Shown: positions 7,396-28,540 of the stretch, in pieces
Position numbering within the stretch: position 1 is the stretch's first letter
How the letters are laid out: each line of letters begins with the position of its first letter
DNA from: Bacteroidota bacterium
GTDB lineage: Bacteria > Bacteroidota > Bacteroidia > Bacteroidales > GCA-2748055
Direction: 5' to 3'
Length of the DNA: 39,022 nucleotides
NCBI GenBank assembly: GCA_020047715.1
Contig: JAIFNN010000229.1
Coordinates: 1-39,022 of the forward strand
The notes under the pieces: generated by a model
What the model saw: the letters and a program-made list of their open reading frames with translations, nothing else
What the model was told of the DNA's origin: nothing
Database searches by the model: none
Translations under genes and position numbers: made by a program

Positions 7396-7467
7396 GCGGG
7401 AGTAGCTCAGGGGTAGAGCATCAGCTTCCCAAGCTGAGGGTCGAGGGTTCGAATCCCTTTTCCCGCT
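7396..7467 (+). tRNA. tRNA-Gly (anticodon CCC)
   Basis: This is a 72-nt cloverleaf. The acceptor stem is GCGGGAG/TTCCCGC with one G-U pair, and the D-arm is GCTC..GAGC. The anticodon stem TCAGC/GCTGA closes the loop TTCCCAA, giving anticodon CCC for GGG codons. The T-arm GAGGG/CCCTT has the invariant TTCGAAT loop, and the discriminator base is T. The CCA end is not encoded. A matched promoter lies at 7306-7336. Confidence 0.95.
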
Positions 7468-7616
7468 CGATAAATAGTCTCATTACCATGGGGCTATTTT
7501 TATTTTGAATACCTTTCGAACCGATTGACCACAGACCAAACATCTGCTTGAATGGAGTTTATCCTGGCTATCCTCAATCATTCGTGTAATTCCCAGAAAA
7601 TCGAGAAATGTATTTG

Positions 7617-21028: not shown

Positions 21029-22162
21029 TTATATTTTTACCCAAACGTTCCCTGCTTTATTGGAATCAACCACCGAATGAATAAATTTCATTCCTCGCAC
21101 CCCATCGCGAACCGTTGGGAATTCTCCCGCGTTGAACTCCTCAGCCCGGATAGATTTCGCGGCACCTTTGTAAATATTCGCCAGGGCTTCATAAATGCCC
21201 TCAGGATGCCCGGCGGGCATTGTATGACTTGTTTCGGCGAGTTTACCGTTGTAACCGTGAGCAGGTTTGTAAATTTTTGTGGGTTCGGAGTCGCTCAGCA
21301 TATAGAGATAATTTGGATTTTCCTGAGCCCATTTAAGACTTGCCTTGGATCCGTATACAGCAAGCGTAATACAGTTCTCCTCACCGCCGCAAACCTGACT
21401 CGCCCTGATAACGCCTTTCAGTTTACCTCCAAAACGCACTAAAACAGTGCCGTCCAGATCAAGTTGAACATCTTCTTTTACCGTGCTGAGATCAGCAAGA
21501 ACCTCTTTAACTTCAAGTCCTGTAGTATACTCGATAAGGTTAAAGGCATGAACGCCTATATCGCCCATGCAGCTGCTGACTCCGGCATGTTTAGGATCGA
21601 GTCTCCATACTCCTGTGATCCTGCTTTCCGTTCCATGAATAATTGAGTTAATCCAGCCCTGATAGTACTGAGCATCAATTCGCTGAATGGTTCCCAGAAC
21701 TCCGGATGCAATCAAATCCCTCATCTGCCGGATCATTGGATAACCTGTGTAGGTATGAGTCAGAGCAAATGTCAACTTTTTATCGGCAACGAGCTTTTCA
21801 AGTTCCAACGCCTCCTCTACGGTCATAGTCATTGGTTTTTCACAAATAAGGTGAAAACCGGCGTTAAGAAGGCTTTTCGCAAAGGGATAATGAAAGGCAT
21901 TTGGCGTGACAATAGCCACAACTTCCATTCGTTCGCTTTCAGGGAGCGAAGATTCAGCCTGAATCATTGCCTCCACACTTATATAGCAGCGGTTGGCAGA
22001 TATTCCTTCTGCTTTGGCAAATTGCTTGCTTTTTTCATAGTCAACATCAAATACGCCTCCAACAAGCTCGTAATCGTTGCATATTCTTGAAGCACGGCGA
22101 TGAGCATCCCCAATAAAAGCGCCAAAGCCACCTCCAACCATTCCCATTTTAATCTTCTTCAT
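21029..22162 (-). CDS. Gfo/Idh/MocA family oxidoreductase (cytosolic)
   Basis: This NAD(P)-dependent sugar or cyclitol dehydrogenase-type protein has 377 aa and no export signal. The N-terminal Rossmann domain begins with GMVGGGFGAFIGDAHRRA (7-24). The family signature EKP is at 108-110, and a later MGDIGVHAFNL segment supplies the probable active-site Asp/His pair. It is the last gene of a five-gene minus-strand cluster with an MFS permease, a sugar isomerase/epimerase, a cytochrome-SUMF1 fusion and a Tat-exported relative. In such clusters the enzyme commonly oxidises or reduces a keto-sugar intermediate. The exact substrate cannot be read from sequence. Confidence 0.88.
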   Translation of the reverse strand: MKKIKMGMVGGGFGAFIGDAHRRASRICNDYELVGGVFDVDYEKSKQFAKAEGISANRCYISVEAMIQAESSLPESERMEVVAIVTPNAFHYPFAKSLLNAGFHLICEKPMTMTVEEALELEKLVADKKLTFALTHTYTGYPMIRQMRDLIASGVLGTIQRIDAQYYQGWINSIIHGTESRITGVWRLDPKHAGVSSCMGDIGVHAFNLIEYTTGLEVKEVLADLSTVKEDVQLDLDGTVLVRFGGKLKGVIRASQVCGGEENCITLAVYGSKASLKWAQENPNYLYMLSDSEPTKIYKPAHGYNGKLAETSHTMPAGHPEGIYEALANIYKGAAKSIRAEEFNAGEFPTVRDGVRGMKFIHSVVDSNKAGNVWVKI

Positions 22163-22283: not shown

Positions 22284-23540
22284 TTAAACGTGGTTTCTCT
22301 TTCGCACATGAAGAATTGTAAAAAACACGATCAGAACAGCCGGCACAATGGCCACAAACCTTAGAGTCAAGGCTCCTCCTGTTAGCTGCGCCGAGGCCCA
22401 CACAATGGCTTCCTCAGATCCTGTAACAGCTTGTTTTAACGCTTCTATTGTTTGTCCGGCCGGAATTGACGCCAAGGTCTGTGCATCAAAAATAGCCCCA
22501 AGAACAGGCTGAGCAATCGCCCCGCCCAAAAAGCCTATCCCTCCCATAATCGCAAGGCCAAGAGCTCCGCTTTGAGGAATATTTTCTGACACAAAGCCTA
22601 ACATTGAAGGCCAGAAAAAAGCCACACCCAGCGCAAATATGCCTGCAGATGCGAAAACCATCACTGCTCCGCTGGTATAGCCCATCAAAACGCATCCGAT
22701 AAAAGCAAGAATTGATGATGCAAGTAGCACAACGGTAGACTTAAGGTTATGTATCAATGTACCTCCAAACTGACGTGCCAGTGCCATGATTCCTGAAATC
22801 CAAACCAATAATAATATCGGGTTGCTCGACACATTTGCAAGAAGCGCGGCAATCCATTGGTTGGTACCCAGTTCAGTGCCTGCTGTAAGGATCATGCAGA
22901 AGGCCATGAAAAGAAACAGCGGGCTTACACAAGCTTTTAGCATGTCCTTGTAAGAATAGCCTGAAACAACCCTCTCGGTCTGTGGAAACTGCTTGTTAAG
23001 GAACATATATCCATATATAAACGTGGGCAGCAGCATGATGCCCATTGCGTAACGCCAATCGGCCAGACCAATTTTATTGAAAAGGTAAACAGCCAAACCT
23101 CCGATGACTATGCCGGTTGGGAACCAGGCGTGAAAACGGTTCAATCGGCGGGTTTTTTGGTCGGTATACATGCTTGTAATCAATGGGTTGCATGCGGCCT
23201 CCACACTTCCGTTGGCTATCCCGATCAATAGCGTGGAGATGAATAAAGACCAGAATCCTGTTGCTACAATTGTAAGAATGATTCCGGCCAAGTGGCATAT
23301 AAAGGCAATTCCAATAATCCTTCCGATGCCGATGATATCAACCAAGGGTCCACCAAAGACCATTGCAAGCGTAAAGCCCCAAAAAGCGGTTCCAACAATC
23401 CACCCTACTTCGGTATGGCTGAGGTTAAACTCGGTTGCCCATGCTTCCACAAATGATCCTCTTGTGGCAAATGCAAGGGCGGTTACTACTAATGCAACGC
23501 AACTTGCGTTGAACAACTGTGCTTTTTTAATTGTGTCCAT
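22284..23540 (-). CDS. MFS sugar permease
   Basis: This is a 418-aa major facilitator superfamily transporter with about twelve hydrophobic segments. The loop after helix 2 has GGPLVDIIGIGRI, resembling the GxxxDRxGRR signature of the family. The overall pattern is closest to the FucP/sugar-permease group seen in Bacteroidota carbohydrate loci. Lying 121 bp upstream of the cytosolic oxidoreductase and 56 bp downstream of the epimerase gene, it most likely brings the sugar or keto-sugar of this pathway across the inner membrane (inference). The energy is presumably a proton gradient, as for most MFS sugar importers, though no residue in the sequence proves it. Confidence 0.85.
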   Translation of the reverse strand: MDTIKKAQLFNASCVALVVTALAFATRGSFVEAWATEFNLSHTEVGWIVGTAFWGFTLAMVFGGPLVDIIGIGRIIGIAFICHLAGIILTIVATGFWSLFISTLLIGIANGSVEAACNPLITSMYTDQKTRRLNRFHAWFPTGIVIGGLAVYLFNKIGLADWRYAMGIMLLPTFIYGYMFLNKQFPQTERVVSGYSYKDMLKACVSPLFLFMAFCMILTAGTELGTNQWIAALLANVSSNPILLLVWISGIMALARQFGGTLIHNLKSTVVLLASSILAFIGCVLMGYTSGAVMVFASAGIFALGVAFFWPSMLGFVSENIPQSGALGLAIMGGIGFLGGAIAQPVLGAIFDAQTLASIPAGQTIEALKQAVTGSEEAIVWASAQLTGGALTLRFVAIVPAVLIVFFTILHVRKRNHV

Positions 23541-23596: not shown

Positions 23597-24589
23597 CTAT
23601 TTCTCAAACGCAGCATCAAATGCGATGCTGGAGGAGGGGAAATCAACAGTACGTACAAATTCACAAGCTTCTTTTGCTCCGTGTTCCCGCTCCATGCCAC
23701 TATCTTCCCATTCAACAGACAAAGGACCCTTGTATTCAATATAATTCAGAGCTCTTATGATTTCTTCAAAATTGATGTTTCCATGCCCAAGGCTCCTGAA
23801 ATCCCAATAGCGCCCATAAGTGCCAAATTCAGTGTGTCCGCCAAAAACACCTGCTTCTGCAGGATATTCGGACCAACCAACATCTTTCATGTGAACATGG
23901 AATATTTTATCGGCAAAAGTGTATATAAACTTCACATAGTCAACTCCCTGATAGCCAAAATGCGAGGGGTCGTAATTAAACCCGAAACTGGGATGGTTGC
24001 TAATTGCTTTGAGAGTTTTTCGGGCAGAGGCAATATCAAAGGCAATTTCTGTGGGATGAACCTCAAGACCAAATACCACGCCCAATTCCTTGTATCTGTC
24101 GAGAATTGGGATCCAACGGGATGCGAAGTCGCTATAGCCCTCATCGATCATTGCCGGGGTAACCGGAGGAAAGGAATAATTGAGATGCCAGATTGGACTG
24201 CCGGTAAAACCGTTTACAATCGAAACGCCAAGGCGCCTGGCTGCTTCACCGGTTCTGATCATCTCTTTTGCTGCACGCTGGCGAACTCCCTCGGGATCCC
24301 CATCTCCCCAAACATAATCAGGGAGAATGCTTTTGTGCCTTATGTCTATTCTGTCGGCAACAGCCTGTCCTACCAAGTGGTTAGACACTGCAAACACCTT
24401 CAATCCATATTTGGCCAAAACCTCGTTCTTTTTGCGGCAATACTCCGCGTCTGCTTTGTCTACTTCAAAATGATCGCCCCAACAGGCGAGTTCCAAGCCA
24501 TCATAACCAAATGATTTGGCTTTAATGCAAACAGTTTCGAAGGGCAAGTCGGCCCATTGGCCTGTAAAAAGAGTTACGGGTCTGCTCAT
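23597..24589 (-). CDS. Sugar phosphate isomerase/epimerase-type TIM-barrel protein
   Basis: The 330-aa protein belongs to the xylose-isomerase-like TIM-barrel superfamily (COG1082 type). A plausible metal site is visible: Glu176 (LEVHP), Asp207 (NYDPSH), His233 (HVHMKD) and Glu293 (SVEWED), at the strand ends expected for the family. N-terminal [13 protein letters not shown] is also typical. Family members isomerise or epimerise free or phosphorylated sugars, and in oxidoreductive clusters they act on keto-sugars. It sits between the permease and the cytochrome-SUMF1 gene, with gaps of 56 and 108 bp. The substrate is unknown. Confidence 0.85.
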
Positions 24590-24697: not shown

Positions 24698-26239
24698 TCA
24701 GTTTGACATGGAAATACCGGAATCGGGTTCACAAACCACCCTGAATCCTATCCCTTTAATATCGGAGTACCACCAAAGACTTTTGGGTTGCTGGGGATCG
24801 GTTTTGAGCCAGGATTCCGATTGGGTAGATCCTCTGGCAGCAGATCTTAGATCCAATGCTTCGGATGTGTAATTTCCGCCTCGAACCACATGTTCTGTAC
24901 CTGAATCCGGGCCTAATGGATTGTTGACATCAGCACCGGTTAGGGAGTATGCATCGGCAGAATACCAATCCGAGCAATATTCAAGCACGTTTCCGCTCAT
25001 ATTTTTCAAACCAAAAGGATTTGGCATCACAAACGAAGGTTCTTGAGTTTTTCCAGCCGAGTTGTAGGCATAGACGGTGTAAGTGTTAATAATTGAAGTG
25101 TCGACCCCGAAAATCTTGCTGCGGAGGCCTGCTTTGGAAAACTTATGTGGATCCCCCTCAAAGAAATAAGGCGTTTCGGTACCGGCCCTACACGAATATT
25201 CCCATTCGGCCTCGGTAGGAAGCCTGTATTTTTTTCCTGTCATTTTCGAAAGCCACTGGCAATAAGTCTGAGCGGCATAGTGAGTCATAGTAATAGCAGG
25301 ACGGTCACCGCTCCCCCATCCCTGATCGGGGATGCCAAACGGAGGAGTTGGGCCGCTAATGGCATCTGGATTTCCAGCATTGTGCTCTTTTATTTTTGCG
25401 GGATCAATTCGACCTTCCGACAGGGTTGAGCCATAAAAAGTCCAGAAAGCGTCCCAGCTTACCTCCACCTCCGCCATAAAAAAAGGTGAAATGCTAACGT
25501 TGCGAACGGGCTTTTCGTCGGGTTTAACATAGTTTTCTTTTTCAGAGCTGCCCATTGGAAACTTCCCGCCTTTAATTGCTATCATCTTAAAGGAAACGGA
25601 AGAATTGGGTATGCACTCGGTATAATTTTCGAAAAGAGTAACTTCAGTTGATTTGGTGAATAGTGCTTGGGAATTGCTCCCGGTAACAGGAACCCCTGCC
25701 ATCCTCTCATGTTTGTAGTTTGGATTGAAGTGACCTACATCAAGATGACAATTAATACACTGCAAATTAAGCAGTTCCGCCTTCTGCTCATAATAGAGAT
25801 GAGCAGTACCTCCCTCGGTAGTCAATCCTTTAGGGAAGAGGTTTTCATGGCACTTAATGCACGATTCGTTATAAACGATTTTTACAGCATGTTCAAGCTG
25901 ACTTTTGCTTTCCCAGTTGAATGAGGCGCTGTCTTTGAAGTAAAAGCCATATAAATCGTGCAACCCTGTCCTAACCTTGGTGCTTAAATAATAAAAACTC
26001 CCTTCAGGTGGAAGGTGGCAATCAACGCAGGCAACCCTTACTCCGCTTTCATTATGATGATGGGTGGATCTTTTCCAGGATTCGTCGGCTAGAGGGTGGA
26101 TATGGCAAGATTGGCAATATTCGTTTGTGTTTGTATGCCTGAGAACTTTTTTGCCACCTATTGTAAGTAGTGAGCCGATAATAATTCCAACAAGTAGGAT
26201 AAGCATTCCCCATTTAGTGATTAACTTCTTAAGAGCCAT
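24698..26239 (-). CDS. NrfH/NapC-like tetraheme cytochrome c fused to a SUMF1-type domain
   Basis: The 513-aa protein has an unusual two-part layout. Residues 10-28 form a membrane anchor. Four CxxCH haem motifs follow at 42-46, 71-75, 127-131 and 161-165. The segment TKVRTGLHDLYG carries Lys88 and Asp95 at the same spacing as the menaquinol-site Lys and haem-ligand Asp of NrfH. This supports a membrane quinol dehydrogenase. From about 216 to 502 comes a formylglycine-generating-enzyme (SUMF1) fold: GGKFPMGSS, YRLPTEAEWEYSCRAG, NVLEYCSDWY, VVRGGNY, GFRVV. The region after RGGNY lacks the catalytic cysteine pair of true FGE, so sulfatase maturation is unlikely. The gene lies in a sugar-oxidoreductase cluster. 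Confidence 0.9.
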   Translation of the reverse strand: MALKKLITKWGMLILLVGIIIGSLLTIGGKKVLRHTNTNEYCQSCHIHPLADESWKRSTHHHNESGVRVACVDCHLPPEGSFYYLSTKVRTGLHDLYGFYFKDSASFNWESKSQLEHAVKIVYNESCIKCHENLFPKGLTTEGGTAHLYYEQKAELLNLQCINCHLDVGHFNPNYKHERMAGVPVTGSNSQALFTKSTEVTLFENYTECIPNSSVSFKMIAIKGGKFPMGSSEKENYVKPDEKPVRNVSISPFFMAEVEVSWDAFWTFYGSTLSEGRIDPAKIKEHNAGNPDAISGPTPPFGIPDQGWGSGDRPAITMTHYAAQTYCQWLSKMTGKKYRLPTEAEWEYSCRAGTETPYFFEGDPHKFSKAGLRSKIFGVDTSIINTYTVYAYNSAGKTQEPSFVMPNPFGLKNMSGNVLEYCSDWYSADAYSLTGADVNNPLGPDSGTEHVVRGGNYTSEALDLRSAARGSTQSESWLKTDPQQPKSLWWYSDIKGIGFRVVCEPDSGISMSN

Positions 26240-26369: not shown

Positions 26370-27716
26370 TTAAAGCGCCGAACCGGGTGTTCGTCCGGGG
26401 ATTGGAGCCACGCCTTCAGCATAGTCGGGAAGTGGTCCCAAAGCATATTCTGTAGGCCCATAGCGCAAGTCGGAAGCCATAATTTCATCCCATGTGATGG
26501 CCTTCCCTGTGTAAGCCGCTTCACGACCCAAAATCGCAACCATTGTTGAATTTGCAAGGGCTTCAGCCTGATTTAGCTTTTTGTTAAGTCGAATGGATTC
26601 AACAAGGTGTATATGCTCCTGATCATAGGGATTATTCATGGGATTAGCCTCATAATCGTATTTCCAAAGCACTTCCCCGTTATAGTTTTCAATCCGGATT
26701 CCTCCATCGGTAAATAAAACGCCCTTGGTCCCCATTATCGATTCGGAAACATTGTTGTCACACCCATCAATTTGGCGTGCTGTTGCCATCATTCGTTTAT
26801 TGTTACCGTATCGGTAGTCGACGCTAAAAAAGTCGAAAATATCGCCGGTCAGGCGCCTGGCCCTTCCCCCATAGCCTACGGCCTTAACAGGAAGCATTCC
26901 GGTAAACCAGGTTGCAATGTCAATATTGTGTATTCCCTGATCGAGCAAGTGGTCACCACTAAGCCATTTAATATTAAACCAGTTCCGGATATTGTATTCC
27001 ATGTCCGACCATTCAGCCCGTTTGGCTTTATTCCACCAGGCCCCCTGGTTCCAATGGGCAGTTGCCGACAAAACATCGCCTATTGCTCCATTTTTAATCT
27101 GAATGTATGCTTCCCAGTAATCGCGGCTGTGGCGGCGTTGGTTTCCTGTAACAATCGTTAGTCCGGCCGCTTCAGCCTGACGGGCGGCAACCATCACCAT
27201 GCGGATTCCTGAAGGATCAACAGCAGCCGGCTTTTCCATGAAAACATGTTTGTTAGCGGCGACAGCAGCTTTTAAGTGTTGTGGGTGGAAATGTGTGGGG
27301 GTGCAAATAAGTACAAGGTCGATATCAAGCGCCAGTACTTTGTCGATGGCATCAAAACCGAGGAAGCACATATTGTCTTCAACTACATTATTTTTCTCTT
27401 TTGCTAACTTTTCCCTGCATCCTTCAAGCCTGTCGGCAAACAAATCGCCAAGAGCAACAATTGCAAGGTCGTTGCCGGCATTAAGAAAATTAAATGCGGC
27501 TCCTGTTCCGCGGTCTCCGCAACCAACCAAAGCTGCTTTGATAGCTTTTCCATCGGGGGCTTTTGGCACAAAGGAATGAATTCCTAACTGCTCAGGGGAA
27601 AAATGCTCACCTACGCCTTTTTCCGAGTTACTGCATGAAGACATTAAAGGAGTAATACCTAAGGGAATTGAGGCTCCTAATAACGCGGAAGTGGCAAAAA
27701 AATCTCTTCTTTTCAT
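26370..27716 (-). CDS. Exported (Tat-type) Gfo/Idh/MocA family oxidoreductase
   Basis: This 448-aa member of the Gfo/Idh/MocA family has an export signal: twin arginine RRDFF (3-7), a hydrophobic stretch and a lipobox-like MSSC with Cys28. Tat export implies that it folds with bound NAD(P) before crossing the membrane, as in glucose-fructose oxidoreductase. The Rossmann motif is VGCGDRGTGAAFN (64-76), EKP is at 161-163, and GDHLLDQGIHNIDIATW resembles the family active-site segment. Related Tat-exported proteins include GH109 glycosidases, which use an NAD-dependent redox mechanism, so this could be a glycosidase rather than a simple dehydrogenase. It is the first gene of the five-gene cluster. 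Confidence 0.88.
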   Translation of the reverse strand: MKRRDFFATSALLGASIPLGITPLMSSCSNSEKGVGEHFSPEQLGIHSFVPKAPDGKAIKAALVGCGDRGTGAAFNFLNAGNDLAIVALGDLFADRLEGCREKLAKEKNNVVEDNMCFLGFDAIDKVLALDIDLVLICTPTHFHPQHLKAAVAANKHVFMEKPAAVDPSGIRMVMVAARQAEAAGLTIVTGNQRRHSRDYWEAYIQIKNGAIGDVLSATAHWNQGAWWNKAKRAEWSDMEYNIRNWFNIKWLSGDHLLDQGIHNIDIATWFTGMLPVKAVGYGGRARRLTGDIFDFFSVDYRYGNNKRMMATARQIDGCDNNVSESIMGTKGVLFTDGGIRIENYNGEVLWKYDYEANPMNNPYDQEHIHLVESIRLNKKLNQAEALANSTMVAILGREAAYTGKAITWDEIMASDLRYGPTEYALGPLPDYAEGVAPIPGRTPGSAL

Positions 27717-27859: not shown

Positions 27860-28540
27860 CTATCTGTTTTTATACTTGTTCAACTCGTCGTACAAGTGCC
27901 TTACTGCCTCCTCCTTGCTCTTGAGAGCTTTCTTCCGGTAATTCTCATATTCATCCTTGACTTCGTTTAAGTCTTTTTTCGTTTGGTTTGTAACGGCATA
28001 ACTTCTTTTGAATGCAGCCAGCATAACTCCCAAGGCTACGACCAAACCTGCTATTATTGACCACATTATACTGTCGTATCCCGCTTTGCTGACCATAAAC
28101 CCTAGAAATTTGAAACTGTTTTTTTCCTTTACCTCTTGTTGAGCTACATTTAGTTCAGCCTGCAGGGATTTGATCGACTCGTTCTTTTCATCAGCTAGTT
28201 CCTTAATAGAGGCAAGATTTGTGTTGAGCGTTTTAAGCGAATCCAGCGCATTTTGCTTAATTTTCAATACCCAGGCTTGCTTAATGACCTTATAATCCTG
28301 GAAATTACTGGATTTCTCAATGGCATAATCGAACTGACCGGCGATATTCAGATCTTCAGGGAAGGGTTTTGGCTTGGGAGCAGCTGGTTTTTGAGTTTGA
28401 ACAGCTGTTTGGCTTTGGGTTTGCGTTTCCTGGGTTGTGGTTGTGGTTTGATTAACCGGCTGTTGTTCCTGTGCAGATACCGAAACTGTGTATAATCCGC
28501 TAAATATCAGTGCGCTTAAAAAATAAATCCGGAACTTCAT
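27860..28540 (-). CDS. Membrane-anchored coiled-coil protein of unknown function
   Basis: I do not assign a function. The 226-aa chain has a signal peptide (1-23, ending SVSA), a Gln/Thr-rich low-complexity segment (25-50), a conserved-looking block (QFDYAIEKSSNFQDYKVIKQ, 69-88), a coiled coil (about 95-140), one transmembrane helix (about 156-177) and a charged C-terminal coiled tail (185-226). It would span the membrane once with most of its mass outside the cytoplasm. Proteins with this block in Bacteroidota are, as I recall, often labelled tRNA (guanine-N1)-methyltransferase. No SPOUT or SAM-binding motif is visible, so that label appears wrong. It is 143 bp upstream of the oxidoreductase cluster on the same strand. 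Confidence 0.65.
   Translation of the reverse strand: MKFRIYFLSALIFSGLYTVSVSAQEQQPVNQTTTTTQETQTQSQTAVQTQKPAAPKPKPFPEDLNIAGQFDYAIEKSSNFQDYKVIKQAWVLKIKQNALDSLKTLNTNLASIKELADEKNESIKSLQAELNVAQQEVKEKNSFKFLGFMVSKAGYDSIMWSIIAGLVVALGVMLAAFKRSYAVTNQTKKDLNEVKDEYENYRKKALKSKEEAVRHLYDELNKYKNR

Follow-up and report, generated by a model that had tools for sequence, protein, structure and literature searches.

At positions 24698-26239 of the window (the whole 39,022-nucleotide stretch of DNA analysed here), the minus strand carries a gene that runs unbroken from an ATG at 26239 to 24698 and encodes a single chain of 513 amino acids, in which a NrfH-like tetrahaem cytochrome is followed by a SUMF1-type domain. 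We call this NrfH-SUMF1 fusion gene NSU. All of its immediate neighbours lie on the same strand. Directly upstream is a gene for an exported dehydrogenase of the Gfo/Idh/MocA family, GfoT (26370-27716), assigned on the basis of Pfam, conservation, structural neighbours, adjacency and co-occurrence. Downstream of NSU, separated by gaps of about 56-130 bp, are genes for an AP_endonuc_2 TIM barrel of the isomerase/epimerase/lyase type that has no signal-like motif and is taken to be cytosolic (23597-24589; Pfam; recurring in 18 loci), an MFS transporter (22284-23540; PF07690) and a second, cytosolic Gfo/Idh/MocA dehydrogenase, Gfo2 (21029-22162; Pfam; recurring in 32 loci), which has a levoglucosan dehydrogenase-like match in NCBIfam below the cut-off.

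Both halves of NSU are recognised by Pfam. The first, comprising the membrane anchor and the tetrahaem NapC/NrfH-type module (residues 1-177, positions 25709-26239), matches Cytochrom_NNT (PF03264) over residues 12-174 (1.4e-28; 100.2 bits, cut-off 24.1), and the second, a SUMF1/FGE-type domain (residues 218-503, positions 24731-25588), matches FGE-sulfatase (PF03781) over residues 218-474 (4.7e-37; 128.5 bits). In an AlphaFold2 model of moderate confidence, built without haems (pLDDT 76.5, below 50 in the loop 297-316), a long N-terminal helix spanning residues 2-36 is the sole anchor. The haem motifs that follow are C42QSCH46 with His48 (26102-26116), C71VDCH75 (26015-26029), C127IKCH131 (25847-25861) and C161INCH165 (25745-25759); all four are invariant among homologues. 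Lys88 and Asp95 (25955-25978), invariant in 58 of 58 diverse homologues, align with the Lys and Asp of the quinol site in D. vulgaris NrfH (2j7a). The single anchor, the four CxxCH motifs and the Lys/Asp pair at NrfH spacing, all described in an earlier note on this DNA, were confirmed by Pfam, the model and this alignment, and the same features, together with family membership, support well the assignment, also made there, of NSU as a membrane redox protein of the NapC/NrfH type linked to quinone.

The fusion itself is genuine. No frameshift or stop separates the two halves, which lie in one continuous frame on the minus strand (the earlier note had left the strand unstated), and an assembly artefact is ruled out by the recurrence of the same single-chain layout in about 100 Bacteroidales loci across all searches, including a second copy of 510 amino acids on contig 197 of the same genome. 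The sole candidates for a naturally split version, two in one survey genome (G523), proved to be contig ends. A scan of GTDB genome contigs recovered the fusion near full length in at least 80 loci, at 55-91% identity, from Alistipes, Parabacteroides, Dysgonomonas, Proteiniphilum, Seramator, Prolixibacteraceae and others, and it was present in 40 of 295 genomes drawn evenly from the order. When a similar number of genomes (about 295) was drawn from across the phylum, NSU was matched outside this genome only once, weakly and by an unfused NrfH-like protein. NSU is a real and widely conserved protein of gut and environmental Bacteroidales. In a plasmid collection, one record, from Parabacteroides distasonis, matched NSU over most of its length, and the other records listed matched the SUMF1 part only; the record that holds the P. 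distasonis copy (L164, NZ_OY725790.1) is circular, 278 kb long and labelled plasmid 45, and includes sugar transferase and aminotransferase genes. The accessions of NSU and GfoT in P. distasonis are WP_008779407 and WP_121955936, respectively. RefSeq labels this NSU copy 'SUMF1/EgtB/PvdO family nonheme iron enzyme', a name that hides the cytochrome half and is corrected here, and labels its neighbours 'Gfo/Idh/MocA family oxidoreductase' and 'sugar phosphate isomerase/epimerase'. Our search, which covered open-access literature, found no description of a NrfH-SUMF1 fusion, and an earlier report elsewhere is possible. The parts of the NSU-GfoT system are all of known kinds and, as far as we could test, their combination is new.

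Like NrfH, NapC and CymA (PF03264; structure 2j7a), NSU has an N-terminal anchor, four CxxCH motifs and the quinol-site Lys and Asp. Unlike them, it carries a C-terminal SUMF1 domain, its conserved neighbour is GfoT rather than NrfA, NapAB or TorA, and haem 1 is bound by CxxCHxH. The last of these differences held in every fusion (His48 in 58 of 58 homologues), as against CxxCHxM in all 16 unfused NrfH proteins read from the order, so that His48 stands in place of the methionine that serves as the haem 1 ligand of NrfH. In the order as a whole, full-length PF03264 matches form two groups, namely fused frames of about 480-550 amino acids, with scores of 84-108 bits, and free NrfH, which are shorter (about 170-230 amino acids) and score 60 bits or less, and each of the 16 free NrfH genes read adjoins a second multihaem frame that is NrfA-like by size and motifs. 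Some genomes hold both the fusion and a free NrfH, and the two must therefore be separate systems. In addition, NSU misses the cut-off of the NCBIfam NrfH equivalog TIGR03153 (80.9 of 134.2 bits), and this genome, which is 88% complete, has no match to NrfA (PF02335) above cut-off, leading us to reject a NrfH-NrfA nitrite system here within that completeness. Although its four haems and NrfH-spaced Lys/Asp pair speak for it, the idea that NSU is an ordinary NrfH feeding a nitrite reductase, with an incidental SUMF1 tail, is extremely improbable against these four lines of evidence. Contig 157 of the same genome encodes another cytochrome, longer than 430 amino acids, partly NrfH-like and with several CxxCH-type motifs (L003:1213-2490), and frames of about 500 amino acids akin to it recur across the order.

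In the case of the C-terminal half, NSU shares with FGE, PvdO and GldK/PorK (PF03781) the signature of the SUMF1 fold (RLPTEAEWEY, GNV, RGG), and a Foldseek search with this half matched FGE (E 7.5e-15) and PvdO. Two cysteines, C327 (58 of 58 homologues) and C503 (57 of 58), line up by position with a structural disulfide of human FGE. Unlike FGE, NSU is fused to a cytochrome and lacks the copper-binding Cys pair: in columns 456-464, where this pair follows RGG, none of the 58 homologues has a cysteine, in line with the earlier description of a SUMF1-type domain devoid of it. A role in sulfatase maturation was rejected, given the missing pair and the fact that no sulfatase was recognised among the recurring neighbours. 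The best NCBIfam score of this half, for PvdO (dihydropyoverdine dehydrogenase, NF051459), reached 86.4 of 500 bits; GldK/PorK (TIGR03525) scored 78.7 of 350, and the EgtB profile also matched far below its cut-off. In 25 relatives, SUMF1 matches of more than 50% identity were always found in a fused frame, while the next, at about 37%, lay in unrelated large proteins without a haem fusion; judged by these comparisons, the SUMF1 half is a subfamily of its own, private to the fusion.

Since the metal site of FGE is absent but the residues of the fold are kept, a binding role is likelier than FGE chemistry, and the SUMF1 half is more likely a docking module than a catalyst, although catalysis of the PvdO kind is still conceivable. 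In such a case the SUMF1 half would itself act on a substrate and exchange electrons with the haems in the same chain, with GfoT merely serving the same pathway. The close fold and top score of PvdO, an FGE relative that is named a dehydrogenase, and the many invariant SUMF1 columns speak for this. The score is, however, far under the PvdO cut-off, the invariant residues belong largely to the fold signature common to FGE, cysteines are missing at the copper positions throughout, and the near-absolute tie to GfoT would be left unexplained, all of which makes a catalytic SUMF1 half improbable.

This tie emerged when the neighbours of the fusion were compiled, as the earlier note had proposed, although its first reading of the locus had missed GfoT. 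Clustering of all genes near NSU yielded one near-constant companion, GfoT. Of 97 parsed loci, 91 have it within 217 bp of NSU on the same strand, at a median gap of 46 bp, downstream in 85 and upstream in 6. A direct check of the remaining loci and of four with a miscalled fusion frame resolved contig ends and missed ORFs and revealed GfoT in seven more. GfoT thus adjoins NSU, co-directionally, in 98 of 101 loci (some of them near-duplicates); the rest are two contig ends and a Cytophagaceae bin (L023:1781-3400), the sole true exception, in which the fusion lies without GfoT in a 7.3-kb contig. At the level of genomes, NSU was present in 40, GfoT in 41 and both in 40 of the 295 surveyed from the order (Fisher p ~9e-49, kinship ignored). 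The only surveyed genome with GfoT and no NSU, G368, has an ordinary free NrfH, and its GfoT (L143:2850-5400) adjoins an exported TIM barrel. The genome studied here has two NSU and two GfoT genes, each NSU beside a GfoT, with no further GfoT at E 1e-30. With a near-constant partner at hand, the earlier proposal of a self-contained module, in which the SUMF1 half would act as partner or catalyst, is not the interpretation that we favour; NSU is probably not a self-contained enzyme, and GfoT is the likelier partner.

The clade of the window has the reverse gene order and a GfoT from a different subfamily, no more than 49% identical to those of other loci, whereas its NSU stays typical, with up to 69% identity. 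The adjacency has therefore survived a rearrangement, and what is conserved is the pairing rather than one substrate; that the pairing outlived a change of dehydrogenase points to function rather than mere linkage. The partner trees of NSU and GfoT are similar (r=0.86), a value that we set aside as evidence, since shared ancestry alone gives high values. It could be argued that the two proteins share a pathway without direct contact, NSU serving some other periplasmic redox partner and GfoT being linked to it by operon inheritance: operon genes can travel together, and the co-occurrence statistic takes no account of kinship. We consider this unlikely, given the persistence of the adjacency through the order flip and the subfamily change, the lack of any other redox enzyme that is constant among the neighbours and the absence of NrfA from this genome. 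Taken together, the linkage of NSU and GfoT is strongly supported, we hold a functional pairing of the two with high confidence, and GfoT is the most likely electron partner of NSU. Four genomes (G356, G550, G590 and G607; L124-L140) have one fusion and up to five GfoT genes, the extra copies adjoining xylose isomerase, sugar carriers, TIM barrels or ThuA-like proteins, which gives the impression of several dehydrogenases sharing a single cytochrome.

GfoT has the Rossmann GxGxxG motif, the EKP lysine and the Asp/Glu-x3-His of a Gfo/Idh/MocA dehydrogenase. Across 49 homologues, GxGxxG, EKP162, D/E259 and H263 are invariant or D/E; R3, F6, C28 and Asp91 are conserved as well, and the N-terminus combines an R-R/K-x-F Tat-type signal with the invariant lipobox cysteine, Cys28. 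Among the best structural matches of the GfoT model (pLDDT 86.6), closely tied in Z, are levoglucosan dehydrogenase, the glycoside 3-oxidation proteins DgpA1 and DgpA, NAD-dependent sulfoquinovosidases, RgNanOx, GFOR, aldose-aldose oxidoreductase (AAOR) and a glucuronide-3-dehydrogenase, and sugar 3-ketoreductases appear among the distant relatives. As the catalytic and cofactor residues are kept, GfoT should be an active dehydrogenase; Asp91 suggests a preference for NAD, and the fold and context suggest substrate chemistry at C3. Within Bacteroidales, GfoT resembles BT2158 of Bacteroides thetaiotaomicron in being an exported Gfo/Idh/MocA sugar dehydrogenase, but it forms a separate subfamily, scoring 40.4 bits against the 750-bit cut-off of the BT2158-type NCBIfam NF058561, and has a dedicated cytochrome linked to it. 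BT2158, a periplasmic glycoside 3-dehydrogenase, is needed for disaccharide use in that species (PMC11300592).

How the two proteins might work together can be proposed as follows. NSU and GfoT would form a two-component, membrane-linked periplasmic sugar oxidoreductase, in which GfoT, folded and loaded with its NAD cofactor before export and then anchored by lipid, would oxidise a sugar hydroxyl, most likely that at C3 and probably on a glycoside. The reduced cofactor would pass its electrons to the tetrahaem half of NSU, and from there they would reach menaquinone at the Lys88/Asp95 site, the NrfH-type module running as a quinone reductase, with the SUMF1 half behind the haems as a docking platform that holds GfoT. 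The MFS carrier would then, in this genome, bring the oxidised product into the cell, where the cytosolic TIM barrel and Gfo2 would complete its conversion; the gene order can be read as oxidation outside, uptake and completion inside. The case for such a route is that NAD on an exported enzyme cannot be exchanged and net oxidation therefore needs a membrane acceptor; a tetrahaem protein whose quinol site is intact is encoded next door in nearly every case, and is therefore the obvious candidate. GfoT shares its fold with Zymomonas GFOR and the Caulobacter aldose-aldose oxidoreductase and would share with GFOR its Tat export with bound cofactor, yet these enzymes recycle their cofactor with a second sugar, whereas for GfoT the candidate acceptor is a quinone-linked cytochrome.

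Several points bear on this account from the other side. Some Gfo/Idh/MocA enzymes with tightly bound NAD(P), such as RgNanOx, GH109 and GFOR, are redox-neutral and work without an acceptor. Additional GfoT copies that lack an adjoining NSU are present in many genomes, and G368 has GfoT but no NSU at all. The weakest step is the passage from NAD hydride to haem, from two electrons to one, for which no mediator, whether flavin, metal or other, was identified.

The direction of flow also has to be weighed. NapC/NrfH proteins are normally quinol dehydrogenases, the quinol-site pair is kept in NSU and GfoT has sugar 3-ketoreductases among its distant relatives, any of which might suggest that the same pair runs in reverse, NSU taking electrons from menaquinol and GfoT acting as a periplasmic keto-sugar reductase and electron sink. 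On general grounds, however, menaquinol (about -74 mV) is poorly suited to reducing a ketone or NAD, the replacement of Met by His at haem 1 should decrease rather than increase the potential of that haem, and a source of keto-sugar is not encoded nearby; we judge the reverse direction unlikely. Judged by general potentials, sugar-alcohol oxidation to menaquinone, by comparison, is downhill, and the NapC-family proteins cytochrome cM552 and CymA are able to reduce quinone. On balance, we think it fairly probable that electrons are exchanged between GfoT and NSU, and give about an even chance to the full account, with its oxidative direction and the SUMF1 half as dock. More tentatively, and at somewhat less than even chance, the system may be a respiratory conduit, in which periplasmic oxidation of sugars or glycosides is wired through a tetrahaem module, docked by SUMF1, into menaquinone, coupling the attack on glycans to respiration.

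These data suggest an undescribed route by which electrons from sugar oxidation outside the cytoplasm could enter the respiratory membrane. If true, it would explain how exported Gfo/Idh/MocA dehydrogenases have their trapped cofactor re-oxidised, and sugars would donate electrons directly to the quinone pool in gut genera such as Alistipes, Parabacteroides and Dysgonomonas. It would also give a SUMF1 domain a role as a redox docking module and add a new class of partner to those of the NapC/NrfH family.

The surroundings of the pair vary between lineages. In gut species, GfoT is followed by a TIM barrel with a Tat-type signal and then by ResB and CcsA, the haem-attachment system, which follows in the operon of Alistipes-type loci. 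Parabacteroides has two LuxR-type regulators encoded behind the GfoT-TIM operon (L061:10130-10837, L045:5928-6506, L164:12815-14092), the first of which has an N-terminal part that resembles, by eye, a redox sensor of the ScdA/hemerythrin type. In the window, the gene directly upstream of GfoT (27860-28540, minus) encodes a 226-amino-acid protein without a Pfam match, which has a signal peptide, a coiled-coil-like stretch and a late hydrophobic helix, and the sole RNA gene found is a tRNA-Gly (CCC) at 7396-7468.
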